NCBI GenBank assembly: GCA_002869895.2
Contig: NEWP02000024.1
Location: forward strand, 10,259 to 43,284
Direction: 5' to 3'
DNA length: 33,026 bases
From: Nitrospira sp. CG24E
GTDB lineage: Bacteria; Nitrospirota; Nitrospiria; Nitrospirales; Nitrospiraceae
The position numbers were made by a program, and so were the translations under genes. Every line of letters starts with the position of its first letter. Within the stretch, counting starts at the first letter, position 1. The notes below the pieces were generated by a model. That model was not told the DNA's origin. It did not search any database and worked only from the letters and a program-made list of their open reading frames with translations. Below are positions 13,992 to 21,740 of the stretch, piece after piece.

Positions 13992-15106
13992 AGATCTCCC
14001 TCCACAACCAGATCCTTTCCAATGCGTCGAACTCTGACATGGCGCAAGGTCGGCGCCTGGGCCAAGAGCTTTGGGCTGTGGCCGCCGATCATTGCCTTGG
14101 CATCCTGCCCTCCCATTAGAATAGGAGCCACATACAGCACGACATGGTTGACGAGTTTCTCGCGTACTGCTGAGGCATTCACTGTGCTGCCTCCCTCAAT
14201 GAGCAGAGAGGTGATGCCGCGCTTGCCCAGCATCGTCAGCAGGGCAGGAAATGACACCTGCCCATTCTTCAGAGGGAGAGTGGCCAGTTCCACCCCTGCC
14301 TGTTCAACGAGACGGCGGCGTGACTGAGATGTACGACTCGTGGTCACGATCAACGTCTTCGCCTGGCCCTGCTTGGTACAGACCGCTGCTGCCGCTGGCG
14401 TCCTGAGCTTGCTATCAAGCACGACGCGTAACGGTTGTCGTAGGGCCAGCTTACGTGGGCGGCCGGACAGTCGCGCTGTCAGTGCAGGATTATCCTTGAG
14501 CACTGTGCCAACCCCGACGAGCACTGCATCCACCTGACTCCTGAGTCGATGCGCATCTTGTCGCGCGAGCGGACCGGTGATCCATCGGGACTCTCCCTTC
14601 GCTGTCGCCACCTTTCCATCCAAAGTCATTCCGGCTTTCAGGACCACATAGGGACGTCCGGTCGTCACCCAGTGGAGATAGGCGCGATTCAACTCTACTG
14701 CTTTTTCTTGTGCGACTCCCGACGTCACCATGATCCCGGCCCTGCGTAAGGCGGCAATTCCCTGTCCTTTGACCATCCTATTGGGATCGGCCATGGCCAC
14801 CACCACCTGCCTCACGCCGGATTGCACCACTGCCGGCAGGCAGGGGGGAGTTCGTTTGAGGAGATGGCAACAGGGTTCGAGCGTGACATAGAGGGTCGCG
14901 CCCCTGGCGCGCGACCCTGCTTGATTGAGCGCAAGAATTTCTGCGTGAGGTTGCCCAGGACCGTGGTGATAGCCACGGCCAATAATGCATCCGTTCTTGA
15001 CGACGAGGGCGCCGACCATCGGATTCGGGCTGGTCTTACCCCGACCCTTCGCTGCGAGGCGAAGAGCCAGGGTCATGAAGTGGAGGTGCGGTGTAGTGGC
15101 AGTCAC
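13988..15106 (-). CDS. ribD: Bifunctional riboflavin deaminase/reductase RibD
   Basis: Catalyses deamination then reduction of the pyrimidine intermediate in riboflavin synthesis. The zinc deaminase domain covers residues 1-145, with HAE (H54, E56) and EPCCHLLKRTPPC (C79, C89). The reductase domain follows from about 150 (YVVLKAGMTLDGKVAT, later LLIEGGSTVNAS). I choose the GTG at 15106: it overlaps the ppdK stop as GTGA and gives 372 residues, the family length. The frame extends upstream to 15304 but those residues are the shadow of ppdK. ATG 15076 would cut into the first helix. Confidence 0.94.
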   Translation of the reverse strand: MTATTPHLHFMTLALRLAAKGRGKTSPNPMVGALVVKNGCIIGRGYHHGPGQPHAEILALNQAGSRARGATLYVTLEPCCHLLKRTPPCLPAVVQSGVRQVVVAMADPNRMVKGQGIAALRRAGIMVTSGVAQEKAVELNRAYLHWVTTGRPYVVLKAGMTLDGKVATAKGESRWITGPLARQDAHRLRSQVDAVLVGVGTVLKDNPALTARLSGRPRKLALRQPLRVVLDSKLRTPAAAAVCTKQGQAKTLIVTTSRTSQSRRRLVEQAGVELATLPLKNGQVSFPALLTMLGKRGITSLLIEGGSTVNASAVREKLVNHVVLYVAPILMGGQDAKAMIGGHSPKLLAQAPTLRHVRVRRIGKDLVVEGDL

Positions 15107-17937
15107 CGTTTCTTGCGCGTGACGCGCGGTCGGCTGCGAGGCAACTGAGCCGACTTCGTCTTCGTAGTCTTCGTCGTCGCTTTCTTCACCGTTGCACGAG
15201 ATCGTGACGCCTTGTGCCTGGGAAGGGAACGGCTCGATCCAGTTTCGGCCAACGATGCATGGGCTGCCGCGAGCCGCGCAATCGGAATACGATAGGGCGA
15301 ACAACTCACATAGTCCAATCCGAGCTCATGACAGAACTCGACAGAACTGGGATCGCCTCCGTGCTCACCGCAAATGCCGAGCTTAATTCCAGGACGGGTT
15401 TTCCTGCCGCCGGCGATGGCCTGCTTCATCAAAGCCCCCACCCCTTCTCGATCGAGCACCGCAAAGGGATCCGCCTCCATAATGTTGGCCGTCCGATAAA
15501 AATCGATAAACTTCGCCGCATCGTCGCGAGAAAATCCGAACGTAGTTTGTGTAAGGTCGTTCGTCCCGAACGAAAAAAACTCCGCCTCTGTCGCAATACG
15601 ATCGGCCGTCACGGCGGCACGAGGCAACTCAATCATCGTGCCGACAAGATAGGAGAGCTTGACGTTGTACTGCTTCATGGTCTCCTGCGCCACCTCGCGG
15701 ATCAAGTCTTTCTGCGCCTTCATTTCCGACACCATCCCCACCAGCGGGATCATGATCTCCGGGACGATCGTCTTCCCTTCCTTGGCCAGCTCGCACGCGG
15801 CCTCCATGATCGCCCGCGCTTGCATACGGGTAATCTCCGGCATCGTAATCCCAAGCCGGCACCCGCGCGACCCGAGCATCGGATTAAACTCGTGGAGTTC
15901 TTCGACTCGAGCCAACAATCGACGCTTTTCTTGCAGCTTGGCTCCGTCGCGCCCGGTCAGCTCCAGCTGCGCGATCTCCACCATCAACTCTTCACGCTTC
16001 GGCAAAAATTCGTGCAGCGGCGGATCGAGCAAACGAATGGTGACCGGGTAGCCGGCCATCTCGCGATAGAGCCCGATGAAATCAAGCTTTTGCAGAGGCA
16101 AGAGCTGATCCAGAAATTTTTCCCGCTCTTCTTTTGTCCGCGCCAAGATCATTTTCTGCATGATCGGGATGCGATCCTCGGCGAAAAACATATGCTCCGT
16201 CCGGCAGAGGCCGATTCCTTCTGCACCGAAACCACGCGCGATGTTCGCCTGATCCGGCACATCTGCATTGGCGCGGACGCGCAACCTCCGCACGCGGTCG
16301 GCCCACGAGAGAATCAATGCAAACCGCTGGTACTTATCGGACTTACTCGCATCCAACTTACCTTGGATGACTTGAATGATTTCAGATTCGACGACGGGAA
16401 GATCCCCCTCGTACACATTGCCGGTCGATCCGTTGATCGATAGGTAGTCTCCCTCGCGGAATACCTTGGCCCCGATGCGAACGGACTGGCCATCCAACAC
16501 TTCTACTGCATCGCAGCCGGCCACACAGACCTTACCCATCTGCCGGGCGACCACCGCCGCGTGGGACGTCATCCCTCCCCGCGCCGTCAGAAACCCCTCT
16601 GCAGCATTCATCCCATGAATATCGTCAGGACTCGTTTCCTGCCTGACCAATACCACACGGATACCGGACTCTTTCATCGCCACAGCACGATCCGGAGTGA
16701 GAGCGATCTTCCCTGCTGCTGCGCCAGGACCGGCCGGAAGCCCTTTCCCCAACGGATTGGATCTTGCCTCTTCTTTCGTGTCGAAAATCGGGTAGAGATA
16801 TTGCGCCAATTGTTCAGGCCCAATCCGCTGGACCGCTTCCTCCTTCGAAATCAGGCGCTCTCTCACCATGTCGACCGCAATCTTCACGGCAGCGATACCG
16901 GTCCGCTTACCGACCCTGGTTTGCAACATGTAGAGCTTGCCCTCTTGGATCGTAAATTCCAGATCGAGCATGTCCCGGTAATGTTTTTCGAGTCGCTTGT
17001 AGGTATGCTCCAATTCCTTGTAGGCCTCCGGTACATTCTTCGCGAGCGCCGTCACTGGAAGCGGAGTCCTGATGCCGGCGACGACATCCTCGCCTTGGGC
17101 ATTCATCAAACACTCACCGAAAAAGTTTTTGTCGCCGGAAGCCGGATCGCGCGTGAATGCCACACCGGTTCCGCTCGTCTCTCCCATGTTTCCGAAGACC
17201 ATCGCGACCACGTTGATCGCCGTACCCCAGGAGTCGGGAATTCCGTAGAGACGCCGGTAGGTGACAGCCCGCGCCCCAAACCAGGAGGAAAAGACGGCAT
17301 TGACCGCCAAGCGAAGCTGCTCGAGCGGCTCATCGGGGAACTCTTTCTTGGTTTCTTCCTTGATGAGTGTCTTAAAGCTGGCGACCAATTCACGGAGACG
17401 CCGGGCATCAAGATGGGTCTCGTGCAAGACGCCGACCTCGGCCTTCTTATGCTTGAGGATCGCTTCGAAATGTTCGCGCGGCACGCCCATGACAATGCTG
17501 CCATACATAGCCACAAAGCGGCGATAGCTGTCCTGAGCAAATCGATCGTTGCGCGTTTTTGCCGCCAGCCCCTCGACCGTCTTGGTTGTGAGACCGACGT
17601 TCAAGACCGTATCCATCATGCCGGGCATCGAAGCCCTGGCGCCGGACCTGACCGAGACCAACAATGGCCGCTCAGGATCGCCGAACCCCATCCCCATCGA
17701 CCGCTCGACCCGCTTGAGCGATTTCAGCGCGGCATCCCACATGCCGGAAGGATACTGCTTGCCATTTTTGTAATATTCGACGCAGGCCTCAGTTGAAATC
17801 GTAAAGCCGGGCGGAACGGAGATACCGAGATTCGTCATTTCGGCAAGTCCGGCGCCCTTCCCACCGAGAAGCTCTTTCATGTTGGAAGTCCCTTCGGCCA
17901 CACCGTCGCCGAAGTAGTACACATATTTCTTAGCCAC
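15103..17937 (-). CDS. ppdK: Pyruvate, phosphate dikinase
   Basis: Interconverts pyruvate, ATP and phosphate with PEP, AMP and PPi in the cytosol. The 944-residue protein has the nucleotide-binding part (LLGGKGAGLAEMTNLG; SVRSGARASMPGMMDTVLN), the swivelling phosphohistidine domain GGMTSHAAVVARQMGK (H459) and the PEP-binding barrel ending GICGEHGGDP and SPYRIPIARLAAA. Beyond the normal family end is a tail of about 46 residues, very rich in Lys, Arg, Ser and Thr with no acidic residue after its start. The start is GTG with AAGGAG about 8 bases upstream. Its stop overlaps the ribD start. Confidence 0.96.
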   Translation of the reverse strand: MAKKYVYYFGDGVAEGTSNMKELLGGKGAGLAEMTNLGISVPPGFTISTEACVEYYKNGKQYPSGMWDAALKSLKRVERSMGMGFGDPERPLLVSVRSGARASMPGMMDTVLNVGLTTKTVEGLAAKTRNDRFAQDSYRRFVAMYGSIVMGVPREHFEAILKHKKAEVGVLHETHLDARRLRELVASFKTLIKEETKKEFPDEPLEQLRLAVNAVFSSWFGARAVTYRRLYGIPDSWGTAINVVAMVFGNMGETSGTGVAFTRDPASGDKNFFGECLMNAQGEDVVAGIRTPLPVTALAKNVPEAYKELEHTYKRLEKHYRDMLDLEFTIQEGKLYMLQTRVGKRTGIAAVKIAVDMVRERLISKEEAVQRIGPEQLAQYLYPIFDTKEEARSNPLGKGLPAGPGAAAGKIALTPDRAVAMKESGIRVVLVRQETSPDDIHGMNAAEGFLTARGGMTSHAAVVARQMGKVCVAGCDAVEVLDGQSVRIGAKVFREGDYLSINGSTGNVYEGDLPVVESEIIQVIQGKLDASKSDKYQRFALILSWADRVRRLRVRANADVPDQANIARGFGAEGIGLCRTEHMFFAEDRIPIMQKMILARTKEEREKFLDQLLPLQKLDFIGLYREMAGYPVTIRLLDPPLHEFLPKREELMVEIAQLELTGRDGAKLQEKRRLLARVEELHEFNPMLGSRGCRLGITMPEITRMQARAIMEAACELAKEGKTIVPEIMIPLVGMVSEMKAQKDLIREVAQETMKQYNVKLSYLVGTMIELPRAAVTADRIATEAEFFSFGTNDLTQTTFGFSRDDAAKFIDFYRTANIMEADPFAVLDREGVGALMKQAIAGGRKTRPGIKLGICGEHGGDPSSVEFCHELGLDYVSCSPYRIPIARLAAAHASLAETGSSRSLPRHKASRSRATVKKATTKTTKTKSAQLPRSRPRVTRKKR

Positions 17938-17971: not shown

Positions 17972-18463
17972 TCAATGGGCGACTGATGCTCCATGGCCGG
18001 CAACGGATTCGAGATGCAACCGATACCGTCCAACGAGATACCATTTCGCCACCAGCCCACAGGCAATGACTGCCACGAGAATCAGCACCATGAAAAGCAG
18101 CCGATAATCGGCGTGTACTCCCCGATCCGCATAATACTGCCCGTCCGGTCCATGCCGAAGCTTGAGATCCGGTTGAATCTGATGAGTCTTGCCGGATTTG
18201 TCTGAGAGATTGATCCACTCCATGCAGAGGCGCACCGGCTCTGCCGCTCCCGTAACGGACTGCCAGCCGAGTTTAAGGCAAATATCTTGTTTGGAATTGA
18301 ATACATCGGGGGCCGTTGCCAGTTCATCGAGATTGATTCCACTGGCCCATAACCCAACCAACACGATCGCGTTGCAGAACAGGATCAGGGCAAGAGATAC
18401 GCCGATGGTGAACCGACGGATTTTCTTCGCCCGACGTTGATCGTCTGACAATGAGTGATCCAT
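17972..18463 (-). CDS. Two-span membrane protein, hypothetical
   Basis: A 163-residue protein of unknown family. A basic N-terminus (RRAKKIRR) leads into a first transmembrane helix at about 18-41, then an 80-residue external loop with two cysteines (C62, C80) that could form a disulfide, then a second helix at about 121-143. The ATG at 18463 and a GTG at 18469 are alternative starts. It lies between glyS and ppdK on the same strand, 34 bases before ppdK. Confidence 0.7.
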   Translation of the reverse strand: MDHSLSDDQRRAKKIRRFTIGVSLALILFCNAIVLVGLWASGINLDELATAPDVFNSKQDICLKLGWQSVTGAAEPVRLCMEWINLSDKSGKTHQIQPDLKLRHGPDGQYYADRGVHADYRLLFMVLILVAVIACGLVAKWYLVGRYRLHLESVAGHGASVAH

Positions 18464-18491
18464 CCCCACACCCGATCGCTTTGTCTCACTT

Positions 18492-18590
18492 GATAGGTGG
18501 TCCGGATGAGTCCCCTACTGCGCGCGTCCAACGAGGGCCTTCTGAGGCCGCGCGTTGCGCGAGCACGGGGGACTTATCGGACCACCTATC
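18492..18590. repeat. 99-base near-perfect hairpin (intergenic structured repeat)
   Basis: The outer arms are GATAGGTGGTCCG at 18492-18504 and its exact complement at 18578-18590, continuing inward with AGTCCCC/GGGGACT after a one-base slip. The apex is GGCCT-TCTG-AGGCC, and the middle is GC-rich (GCGCGCG/CGCG). It starts 2 bases after the glyS stop. I infer a terminator, mRNA-stabilising element or member of a dispersed repeat family. The lack of a clear T-run argues against a plain intrinsic terminator. Confidence 0.7.
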
Positions 18591-18592
18591 TC

Positions 18593-20782
18593 TTACCCTC
18601 CTTGTACCACAATCTGCGAGAAGTCCGCGAATGACATAAACAAATCATCCACGTGTTTGAGCAGCGACAACCGGTTACTTCGGACGATCGGATCCTCTGC
18701 ATTGACCATGACAGCCGTGAAGAACGCATCGATGGCAGGCTTCAGACGCACCAGCGCGTCCAGAGCTTGGCCATAGTCTCCACGGGTCATCGCGGACTTC
18801 ATCTTCTCCTGCTCTTCTGTCGTGGCCTGGTAGAGCGCCGACTCCGTAGGATGCTCGAACCGCGTCAGATCGACCGGTTTGCGATCCCACTGCTCTTTTT
18901 CGACGAGCCGGTGCGCACGCTTGAACCCGACGATCAACGGATCAAACTCCGGCTTCGTGGTCACGGATTCAAGCGCCTTCATTCTCAGCACGAGATCGAC
19001 GAGATCCAACGCCTGGTCATGAGCCGGCTTGAGCACCGCTTCGATGACATCATCTCGCAATGCATAGATGACCCGACCATAGTGCCGAACCCGTTCGAAG
19101 ACGAATTCCGTCATGCGCCGCAGGCCCTGCTGTTCGGAATCTGGCATCCCCTTGAAGCCATCGTCGGAAACGAAGTTTCTCGCATTGCTAATGTAGCGCC
19201 CCAAGTTGGTGCGCAGGTTTCCCTCAAGAACAATCCGGACAATGGCCGTGGCATTCCTGCGCAACGCAAAGGGGTCTTCCGATCCGGTGGGTATGACTCC
19301 TACGTGGAAGAACGCCGCGATGGAATCCATCCGATCGGCCAACGACAGGACTTGACCGGCCAGGGTCCGAGGCAATTCGCCTTCGATCGATCGCGGGAGA
19401 TACTGTTCCCTGATCGCCTGACTGACCGCATCAGGCTCACCGTCATGTTTTGCGTACTCGCCCCCCATGAGGCCCTGCAGTTCAGGAAACTCACCGACTA
19501 CACCGGTGAGAAGATCGGCCTTGCACAGATCCGCTGCCCTCTCGCAGGCCCGTTTCAGTTCGCCGTCATGAGGTCGCAAACTTGAGGCGATGAAGCCGGC
19601 CAGCTTCCTGACCCGTTGCTGTTTCTGAGCCATGGTTCCGAGCTTCTGATGGAATGTGACACCAGCAAGCTTCTTCACACGGTCTTGTAACTTCACCTTG
19701 CGGTCTTCGTCGAAGAAAAATTTGGCATCGGCCAAACGCGCCGCCAGAACCCGTTCGTTGCCTTCACGGATGAGAGTCATGTCTTTCACTTGGTTGTTGG
19801 CCACCGCGATGAAATGCGCCACAAGTCTGCCAATATCCTTGTGCATCAAGGAGAAGAACCCCTGATGTTCTTTCATGGAGGTGATCAAAATCTCTTGCGG
19901 CACCTCTAGGTAGGCATCCTTGAAGGATCCGACAATGGCATTGGGACATTCGGTCGTATAGACCGCCTGATCCAGCAGATCGACATCGACGTTCAGACTA
20001 AAATTGGTCTTCTTGCAGATCAGGGCAATCTGATCTTCGATCACGCGTCGCCGACGCTGAGGATCGGCAATGACCCCGTGACGTTCAAGCCCCTTCACAT
20101 AGGATCCGTAGTCTCGGACCGTAATCCCTCTTGCACTCCCTAACACGCGATGGCCTTCCGTCCGATTCCCAGCGGTAATCCCCGCGGCTTCGATGGGAAG
20201 CGTGGCCCCTCCGTACAACGCCACCAGCCACCGTATCGGCCGAGCGAACCGTGCGCCGGTGTGATTCCACTTCATCGCCTTTGGAAAAGAAAGTTTTGCG
20301 ATCAACGGCGGAAGAAGTTCTTTCAAAACCACGCTGGCGGGCTGCCCGAGTTCCTGCTTCACTGCAAAGAGATACTCCCCCTTCGGGGTCTGTCGAATCT
20401 GCAACTCGTGGACGGTAACTCCTTGCCCTGCGGCAAACCCTGTCGCGGCTCTGGTCGGTAGGCCAGCCTGATCGAATGCCACCGCTTTGGAAGGCCCCAT
20501 CGCCTCCTTGACCATAGAGGTTTGCTGAGTTGCGAGCCCCTCAACCACTAGAGTCAATCTTCGTGGAGTTCCCAGCGTACGGACGGACTGAAACGTGAGA
20601 CGTTGGTCTTTCAACAGCTGCTCAGCAGAGTCTTTGAGAGAAGACAAGGCAGGAGCGATAAACTGGTAGGGAAGTTCTTCGACGCCGATCTCAAGCAACA
20701 ACTCAGCAGCGGTTACCGAAGAAGGACGCCCACCCTTCTTCGTAGCAAGAACGGAACGTCGACGTTTCTGAGCCTTTGGCAT
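18593..20782 (-). CDS. glyS: Glycine--tRNA ligase, beta subunit
   Basis: Subunit of the alpha2-beta2 bacterial glycyl-tRNA synthetase that binds tRNA-Gly. The family start LLLEIGVEELP is visible at about residue 28, with GPSKAVAFDQAG, LARPIRWL-type (FARPIRWLVALYGG) and the anticodon-binding C-terminus (VMVNAEDPIVRSNRLSLL). With the ATG at 20782 the protein is 729 residues. A 26-residue basic leader (PKAQKRRR...TKKGGR) precedes the usual N-terminus. AAGGA lies about 5 bases upstream of that ATG, so the longer frame to 20992 is rejected. It follows glyQ by 16 bases. Confidence 0.96.
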   Translation of the reverse strand: MPKAQKRRRSVLATKKGGRPSSVTAAELLLEIGVEELPYQFIAPALSSLKDSAEQLLKDQRLTFQSVRTLGTPRRLTLVVEGLATQQTSMVKEAMGPSKAVAFDQAGLPTRAATGFAAGQGVTVHELQIRQTPKGEYLFAVKQELGQPASVVLKELLPPLIAKLSFPKAMKWNHTGARFARPIRWLVALYGGATLPIEAAGITAGNRTEGHRVLGSARGITVRDYGSYVKGLERHGVIADPQRRRRVIEDQIALICKKTNFSLNVDVDLLDQAVYTTECPNAIVGSFKDAYLEVPQEILITSMKEHQGFFSLMHKDIGRLVAHFIAVANNQVKDMTLIREGNERVLAARLADAKFFFDEDRKVKLQDRVKKLAGVTFHQKLGTMAQKQQRVRKLAGFIASSLRPHDGELKRACERAADLCKADLLTGVVGEFPELQGLMGGEYAKHDGEPDAVSQAIREQYLPRSIEGELPRTLAGQVLSLADRMDSIAAFFHVGVIPTGSEDPFALRRNATAIVRIVLEGNLRTNLGRYISNARNFVSDDGFKGMPDSEQQGLRRMTEFVFERVRHYGRVIYALRDDVIEAVLKPAHDQALDLVDLVLRMKALESVTTKPEFDPLIVGFKRAHRLVEKEQWDRKPVDLTRFEHPTESALYQATTEEQEKMKSAMTRGDYGQALDALVRLKPAIDAFFTAVMVNAEDPIVRSNRLSLLKHVDDLFMSFADFSQIVVQGG

Positions 20783-20798
20783 GGATCCTTCTGCTGGG

Positions 20799-21740
20799 CT
20801 AAGACCGACCAGCGACAGTTCTTGAACGTGCGCCCGATAACTTTGCTCCGCCACGCTCCATCCTACGATTGAGCAGCGGATGCCCCATCGCTGCGCGCTC
20901 TTCGATGTAACGTTCGGCACATTGGCGCGCGAGGGCGCGAACTCTCGCGATGTATCCTGTCCGCTCTGCCACACTGATCGCACCACGGGCATCCAGTAGG
21001 TTGAAGAGATGCGAAGACTTGATACAGAACTCGTAGGCCGGCAGCGTCAATCGTTTCTCGGTTTTGGCCAGCAACCTCTTACATTCTCCTTCGAACGATT
21101 GGAATGTGGCCATGAGCATCGCCACATCGCCCTCTTCGAAATTATAGGTCGAAAACTGGACTTCAGTTTCGTGATGGATGTCGCGGTAGGTAATCGAATC
21201 GTTCCACGCCAGATCGAAAACGCTATTCACCTGTTGCAGATACATGGCAATCCGTTCCGTCCCATAGGTAATCTCGACGGTAATCGGATTCAGTTCTATG
21301 CCGCCGATCTCTTGGAAGTAGGTGAACTGGGTAATTTCCATCCCGTCGAGACGCACCTCCCAACCAAGGCCCCAGGCGCCTAATGTGGGAGACTCCCAAT
21401 CGTCCTGAATGAATCGGATGTCGTGCTGCTTCGGGTTAATCCCCAATTGAGCCAGACTCTCCAGATACAACGCTTGAATGTTGTCGGGCGCCGGCTTTAG
21501 GACAACCTGATACTGATAGTAATGTTGCATGCGGTTCGGATTTTCTCCATAGCGTCCATCTGTGGGACGCCTGCATGGTTGGGGGTAAGCCGCCCGCCAT
21601 GGCTCAGGACCCAGGGACCGGAGAAACGTAGCCGGGTGAAAGGTGCCTGCCCCCATCTCGAGATCATAGGGCTGATGGATGACGCAGCCTTGCTCGGCCC
21701 AATAATGATGCAACGTGAGGATGAGATCCTGGAATGTCAC
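20799..21740 (-). CDS. glyQ: Glycine--tRNA ligase, alpha subunit
   Basis: Catalytic subunit that forms glycyl-adenylate and charges tRNA-Gly. The 313-residue sequence begins with the conserved [20 protein letters not shown] and contains [32 protein letters not shown] and [18 protein letters not shown]. The start is GTG with AGGA 8 bases upstream. It is the first gene of the long minus-strand run and is divergent from the Rrf2 gene across 279 bases, so the promoter for the run is probably there. Confidence 0.97.

Follow-up and report, generated by a model that had tools for sequence, protein, structure and literature searches.

The hairpin that follows glyS in Nitrospira sp. CG24E is, on our best reading, one copy of a dispersed, REP-like hairpin family of the Nitrospiraceae at mRNA 3′ ends, a REP-like 3′-UTR element of new architecture. 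Overall, comparison of the sequences leads us to regard it as probable that these are 3′-UTR hairpins in the mRNA of the upstream gene, which would slow ribosome release and/or block 3′ exonucleases.

The window, which is the whole 33,026-nucleotide stretch of DNA that was analyzed, holds one copy according to the covariance-model search. Folding places this element at 18492..18590 on the minus strand, with a covariance-model match of 106 bits over 18487-18593, and when the minus strand is folded from 18610 to 18470 a single hairpin forms from 18590 to 18492 at -66.1 kcal/mol, compared with a mean of -47.0 for dinucleotide shuffles (z -5.36, with 0 of 200 as good); the plus strand of the hairpin region folds at -71.2 (z -6.74). 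A preliminary description had placed a long hairpin after glyS with exactly these end points, and the folding energy bears it out. The conserved 50-nt tip, or core, is at 18517..18566 (minus strand), and in the alignment its internal stem, GA bulge and mismatches are kept in nearly all aligned copies. It is flanked by a 5′ arm at 18567..18593 (minus strand; model positions 1-27, from alignment A1 and the ortholog comparison, with pairing from 18590), whose sequence is peculiar to the glyS copy and the orthologs of that copy, and by a 3′ arm at 18487..18516 (minus strand; model positions 78-107), which the alignment shows to be complementary to the copy's own 5′ arm. Pfam identifies the genes upstream of the hairpin as glyQ and glyS, the latter encoding the glycyl-tRNA synthetase beta subunit (18593..20992, minus strand; PF02092) and ending in a TAA at 18595-18593, and the stem starts 2 nt past that stop. 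Downstream on the same strand is a 165-codon ORF without a Pfam match (17972..18469), which also follows glyS at most orthologous loci that were read and which sits between the hairpin and ppdK (pyruvate phosphate dikinase; 15103..17937, minus strand; PF02896, PF01326 and PF00391), so that ppdK, previously taken for the next gene, is the next but one. Rfam 15 gave no family above its curated score in the window; at E<=1 it returned mir-637 alone, at E 0.5 and far under its cut-off, and nothing credible.

The element is a repeat, as had been guessed from the one copy. Within the 3.45-Mb genome of the strain, blastn finds 44 places that match the hairpin, and the covariance model, which was built from 35 of the 42 collected copies, finds at least 107, 99 of them across the whole model; this copy number is a lower bound as 150 of 1575 candidates were scored, and copy numbers generally are lower bounds given that 12, 15 or 150 candidates were scored per genome, depending on the search. 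A 399-kb sample, consisting of one whole contig and part of another that were picked for their size and in which copies were known beforehand, contains 15 model places after two opposite-strand echoes are dropped, or about one per 27 kb. Across the class, 150 of 246 genomes match the model at E 1e-6, of which 147 are in the Nitrospiraceae and three, with single hits, are in two other families of the same order; at least 12 genomes of the Nitrospiraceae are without a match at this threshold among the negatives listed from the 246-genome sample. A pattern scan of named genomes returned at least 116 stretches, and all 80 of those listed come from Nitrospira, Nitrospiraceae, Nitrospirae or Nitrospirota records; viral contigs (pattern scan) and plasmids and phages (blastn) gave no match to the element. 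Our literature search, which was judged from titles and abstract starts and left most subscription journals outside its scope, found none on such a Nitrospira repeat among the papers listed; for N. moscoviensis, a bulk count of palindromes is reported in the RepRanger paper.

The architecture of the family is defined by a 50-nt tip, with the common form (G/T)TGCTCGCGCAACGCGCGGCCTCAGAAGGCCCTCGTTGGACGCGCGCAGT, that is nearly unchanged across most dispersed copies, mismatches and GA bulge included, and by flanking arms of 23-27 bp that differ widely between copies and are mostly paired within each copy. Measured on a structure drawn by hand from the same alignment as was tested, the 39 copies with full flanks (the 42 collected minus three at contig ends) have 82.4% of cells paired versus 71.8% when shuffled and 37.7-46.1% in slid registers, with both-side changes in 28 of 41 pairs versus 22.5 in shuffles. 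The mean pairing energy in these 39 copies is -38.5 kcal/mol for a copy's own arms and -26.6 for swapped arms (573 combinations). An initial count on 35 of the 42 copies gave 83.8%, and it left out four badly fitting copies along with the three at contig ends, a choice favoring pairing, which the 39-copy count undoes by restoring those four; arms are plainly ill-fitting in 4 of the 42 copies (one each in L021, L022, L024 and L031). RNAalifold, run unaided, proposes 31 pairs, of which 19 stay paired through changes on both sides. The preliminary description had named an absence of conserved pairing among the observations that would speak against it; pairing instead covaries among copies and among orthologs. 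Related tip types exist, such as TTGCTCCCGG...TCGACGGGCGC, and compensating changes are found inside the tip too; counts from alignment A2, which holds 150 of 184 matches, are inflated by the echoes among them. At six loci (L011, L015, L030, L058, L119 and L159) a larger palindrome of the type CAGGATGCTGAAAAA...TTTTTGAGCATCCTG runs from or near the stop and seemingly hosts the core hairpin, one repeat nested in another.

Position relative to genes was scored for 231 copies at 152 loci, comprising all 105 rows of one model listing and 126 of the 184 of another; the 58 rows dropped scored below 37 bits and consisted for the most part of opposite-strand echoes, plus a few weak but distinct places. 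Genes were called with a simple, codon-based, home-made finder, whose stop positions may err by one or two bases and which gave a coding density of 0.74 for this count and 0.76-0.81 when applied a further time. Setting aside 41 copies at a locus edge and 1 in a called ORF, 189 copies could be classified by gap type, with 94 in co-directional gaps in the sense orientation, 23 antisense, 40 in convergent gaps and 32 in divergent gaps, the last figure being one that depends on the crude gene finder. If a gene ending toward the copy's 5′ side is counted as a sense opportunity and one ending toward its 3′ side as an antisense opportunity, then the copy lies <=20 nt from the stop or overlaps it in 77 of 134 sense cases and in 3 of 63 antisense cases (Fisher 6e-14), with the copies partly non-independent, some being tandem and some coming from related genomes. 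The same count in the strain's own genome gives a weaker bias, 17 of 31 versus 2 of 12 (Fisher 0.04). Seventy of the 134 sense copies start <=15 nt past the stop or overlap with it. The family is therefore REP-like in the functional sense of being extragenic, present in many copies and downstream of coding regions. Six loci (L072, L087, L094, L117, L140 and L160) have genes with similar ends (...GWQ* as translated in L072), each then followed by an element, and the arm begins within the coding end in some of these and past the stop in others.

A strong GC-rich hairpin past a stop codon would suit an intrinsic or degenerate terminator or attenuator separating glyS from the genes downstream, which we nonetheless consider most improbable from the sequence that follows the stem and from the genes that follow the copies. 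The 20 nt past the stem consist of 36% A, 33% G, 15% C and 16% T, or 69% purine, in 224 of the 231 copies (the remaining seven have a short or lacking flank); TTTT occurs after the stem in 4 of the 224 and at least five T in 8 nt in 5 of the 224. The window copy has no T-tract, its flank 3′ of the stem being CAAGTGAGACAAAGCG, and this lack had been correctly remarked on from this copy alone. With TTTT after so few copies there is no intrinsic terminator, and we reject that assignment on the strength of 224 purine-rich, T-poor 3′ flanks. Near-stop copies have a co-directional or a convergent next gene in a ratio of 58:19, and gene 3′ ends in the same loci do so in ratios of 584:210 for all adjacent pairs and 290:134 for gaps >=110 nt, from which the near-stop ratio does not differ; operon ends, and convergent gaps among them, are thus not preferred. 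Attenuation of ppdK, which had been offered as one role for the hairpin, finds no support in the form proposed, given that there is no terminator tract, that the 165-codon ORF intervenes, and that the gene neighbors of near-stop copies are like those of ordinary 3′ ends. Factor-dependent termination may occur at the hairpin.

Orthologous sites allow the rates of change of tip and arms to be compared with those of the adjoining genes. Three ortholog sets were chosen for a shared arm lineage, glyS (8 of 20 loci), an RND transporter gene (6 of 17) and nuoD (5 of 26), and in that order the tip has diverged by 0.126, 0.091 and 0.024, the arms by 0.287, 0.319 and 0.333, and the fourfold sites of the upstream genes by 0.411, 0.323 and 0.291. 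Among the outer pairs that have changed, 71, 53 and 42 carry a change on each side and remain paired, 46, 5 and 11 remain paired after a change on a single side, and 57, 35 and 21 are broken, a fair share of the changed pairs, all of these being sums over genome pairs in which shared events are recounted. For the glyS set, the one with a null from shuffles, both-side changes are found in 11 of 41 pairs versus 5.3 when shuffled. The arms change roughly as fast as fourfold sites do, with their pairing largely kept, and the tip is restrained or homogenized by recent exchange. The L026 flank was excluded from the ortholog comparison since the query contained another repeat. Across species, the glyS gap holds related-arm hairpins in several and either hybrids or different tip types elsewhere; the element is absent from this gap in G004, G019 and G024 (L179, L181 and L182). 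Copies in the glyS gap (L168 and L169) and in the RND transporter gap (L244) look chimeric by eye, with left and right arms from different lineages, a pattern that recombination within the shared tip, or deletion between tandem copies, would produce.

The gap between nuoD and nuoE (PF00346 and PF01257) was found in 26 of the 32 genomes searched, and 13 of these carry inserts with this type of tip (12 identified by pattern and L232 by eye), 12 carry a tipless insert of 83-115 nt, and one (L230) is empty, as read from the sequence, with the folded stretch there being coding sequence. Nine of the 12 tipless inserts fold at z -2 or lower, the exceptions being L218, L235 and L236, and so do 10 of the 13 core-type inserts, the exceptions being the truncated L222 and L227 and the composite L237, of which the first 110 nt alone were folded. 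The tipless inserts were judged by eye to be unrelated to the tip and partly to each other. In a comparison for target-site duplications of the MITE kind, the empty L230 site was seen by eye to share TGAGG with both sides of some filled sites, and deletion is as likely there as original absence. Orthologs of the RND transporter gene (PF00873) carry different tip types and unrelated arms in their 3′ gap, among 17 loci read (L243-L259), of which L259 is without a usable end. In a census of 432 kb that includes the window, 29 of 226 post-stop stretches have strong hairpins (z <= -3, >=14 pairs), versus 7 of 147 pre-start stretches, which were drawn mainly from longer gaps (Fisher p 0.011); 4 of the 29 have the tip, and the others include further palindrome families and ordinary terminators. 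Other palindromes, partly AT-rich, were seen in the same post-stop niche, including recurrent GGTCAATG, GTGAAACGT and TTTGGTTTGTTTGG units together with their complements (L214, L217, L218, L219, L220, L221, L223, L224, L231, L235, L236 and L238, and post-stop stretches of G000 C14 and C20).

The closest comparators are the REPs and REPINs (GTAG- or CGTC-tagged and RAYT-associated), which resemble this element in being high-copy, extragenic, hairpin-forming and mostly downstream of coding regions. Two papers describe REPs as mainly downstream of coding regions and as sometimes supplying the stop codon (PMC3733652, PMC12306157). REPs have a GTAG or CGTC tetranucleotide at the foot and stems of 6-13 bp, whereas the Nitrospiraceae element has about 41 model pairs, a strong excess of the sense orientation and no conserved foot; within 16 nt around the foot, GTAG occurs in 15 of 224 copies, GTGG in 32 and CGTC in 0, and alignment columns 1-4 are unconserved. 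REPs are also linked to Y1 transposases, and for this element no such link was found. We rejected a Y1 (RAYT-type) association because no flanking was found in the loci examined: the strain's genome has three Y1 transposase genes, none flanked by the element, a Y1 hit is absent from 13 of the 32 genus genomes, and 31 Y1 loci (90 kb; of 43 matches listed) contain two core fragments, which does not exceed the background density of roughly one copy per 27 kb. REPINs have conserved ends and a variable middle; here, in contrast, the tip is conserved and the base is variable. As the REP hallmarks tested are lacking, the element is not filed as a REP despite its REP-type position and look.

The Ype, Efa, NEMIS and ERIC repeats are similar in being dispersed and larger than REPs, and one study reports that Ype and Efa prefer the 3′ ends of coding regions and that NEMIS and ERIC are foldable and co-transcribed with flanking genes (PMC1590033). 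The present element differs from all four in that its outer ends are unconserved, its tip is conserved and its arms are free to change, and in that its named records are all Nitrospirota (the 80 listed of at least 116). Terminal inverted repeats of the MITE kind were likewise not found, as the outer columns of alignment A1 are unconserved between copies. Integron attC sites are imperfect hairpins with sequence-variable stems that lie directly past stops in a fixed orientation, and their boxes read RYYYAAC ... GTTRRRY. The post-stop position, orientation and variable-stem hairpin are alike, and we rejected an attC assignment because the core GCG(C/G)AAC does not fit RYYYAAC; GTTRRRY fits most A1 rows (GTTGGAC, GTTGAAC) and not the GTTCGAC tips. 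In further contrast to attC, the conserved part is here the tip and not the base, and the copies are spread over many contigs with no cassette array.

Since copies differ between species, a mobilizer must exist or have existed. The element could be a selfish DNA hairpin that moves by a single-stranded or repair-based route and survives past stops as the least harmful place, with its tip read by the mobilizing enzyme and neither tip nor arms useful to the host. Dispersed copies, their presence or absence at the same site, the chimeric-looking L168, L169 and L244 (by eye), the nested and tandem arrangements found among the collected copies, and the other palindrome families in the same niche would all suit such an origin. 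We rate it as rather unlikely, however, because neutral insertion past stops predicts both orientations and 77 of 134 versus 3 of 63 are seen, because the arms drift with partial compensation after insertion, and because no partner enzyme was found, with Y1 missing from 13 of 32 genomes and Y1 loci not enriched in copies. A more restricted proposal is that the arms are not mobile with the tip and that the right arm arises on site by fold-back synthesis, which copies the left flank in inverted form; this would explain how one tip comes to have many well-paired, unrelated stems. At L072, L026, L056, L121 and L129 the left arm enters the coding end and the right arm is approximately its inverted copy, and the ...MGECDR* region of nuoD is kept whether the gap holds a core-type insert, an unrelated insert or nothing. 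A register-anchored test on 24 of the 27 stop-in-arm copies (three were dropped since the element itself supplied the gene end) gave a score of 23.0 for the right arm against its own coding tail versus 18.7 when permuted (0 of 5000), and 8.25 versus 7.55 paired bases (14 of 5000). Some of these 24 copies are relatives, however, and two looser, fold-based tests did not show the effect, one on 76 copies (5.0 versus 4.8 paired bases) and one on 24 copies (380 of 2000 permutations as high); in addition, one subfamily has arms that are found again at many loci in alignment A1, so arms travel at least sometimes, and selection for pairing would yield the same pattern. On balance we find on-site synthesis quite improbable as a general account, and the right arm either had the flank as its template or was favored by selection for pairing with the flank.

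The reading that we favor, a hairpin in the 3′-UTR of the upstream gene's mRNA, draws on three features that jointly point to RNA, namely the way copies are oriented at stop codons, the partial compensation in the arms and the slow change of the tip, and the sense orientation at stops itself suggests that the element acts in messenger RNA. The element would be transcribed with the upstream gene and would fold at or over its stop codon, where the folded hairpin would most likely slow the release of ribosomes and/or block 3′ exonucleases, and slowed release or blocked decay would then set the expression and stability of the upstream cistron. Protection of the glyQS mRNA, which was among the roles raised for the window copy, fits the sense-oriented, post-stop position of the copies. 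A precedent is offered by E. coli, in which REPs <16 nt from a stop reduce translation (PMC12306157). The tip sequence would be kept by recognition, whether by a protein, the ribosome or copying machinery, and its recognition by some factor is possible. It could also be that the orientation bias stems from the mechanism of insertion instead of function, and that the tip is conserved through recent spread or conversion and not through constraint. Other points against the favored reading are the 32 copies in divergent gaps, the four with ill-fitting arms, and the absence of the element in some species from glyS (L179, L181, L182) and nuoD (L230) sites that are filled in others. More speculatively, the hairpins may constitute a post-transcriptional regulon, in which a Nitrospiraceae factor (a protein, an sRNA or the ribosome) would read the tip at around a hundred hairpin landing sites per genome, many of them in sense at stops, with the stem kept only for length and pairing, so that it could be remade or even replaced by an unrelated hairpin. 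We put forward this extension as doubtful.

Bacterial hairpin repeats are usually regarded as transposition debris with occasional effects on mRNA. The Nitrospiraceae family is one repeat type that has the comparative marks expected of selection on RNA structure, namely arms with partial compensation, a slow tip, a biased orientation at stop codons, and unrelated hairpins that replace one another in orthologous gaps. The role of post-stop hairpins thereby becomes directly testable in an environmentally important group, for which the repeat would also be a useful genomic marker.
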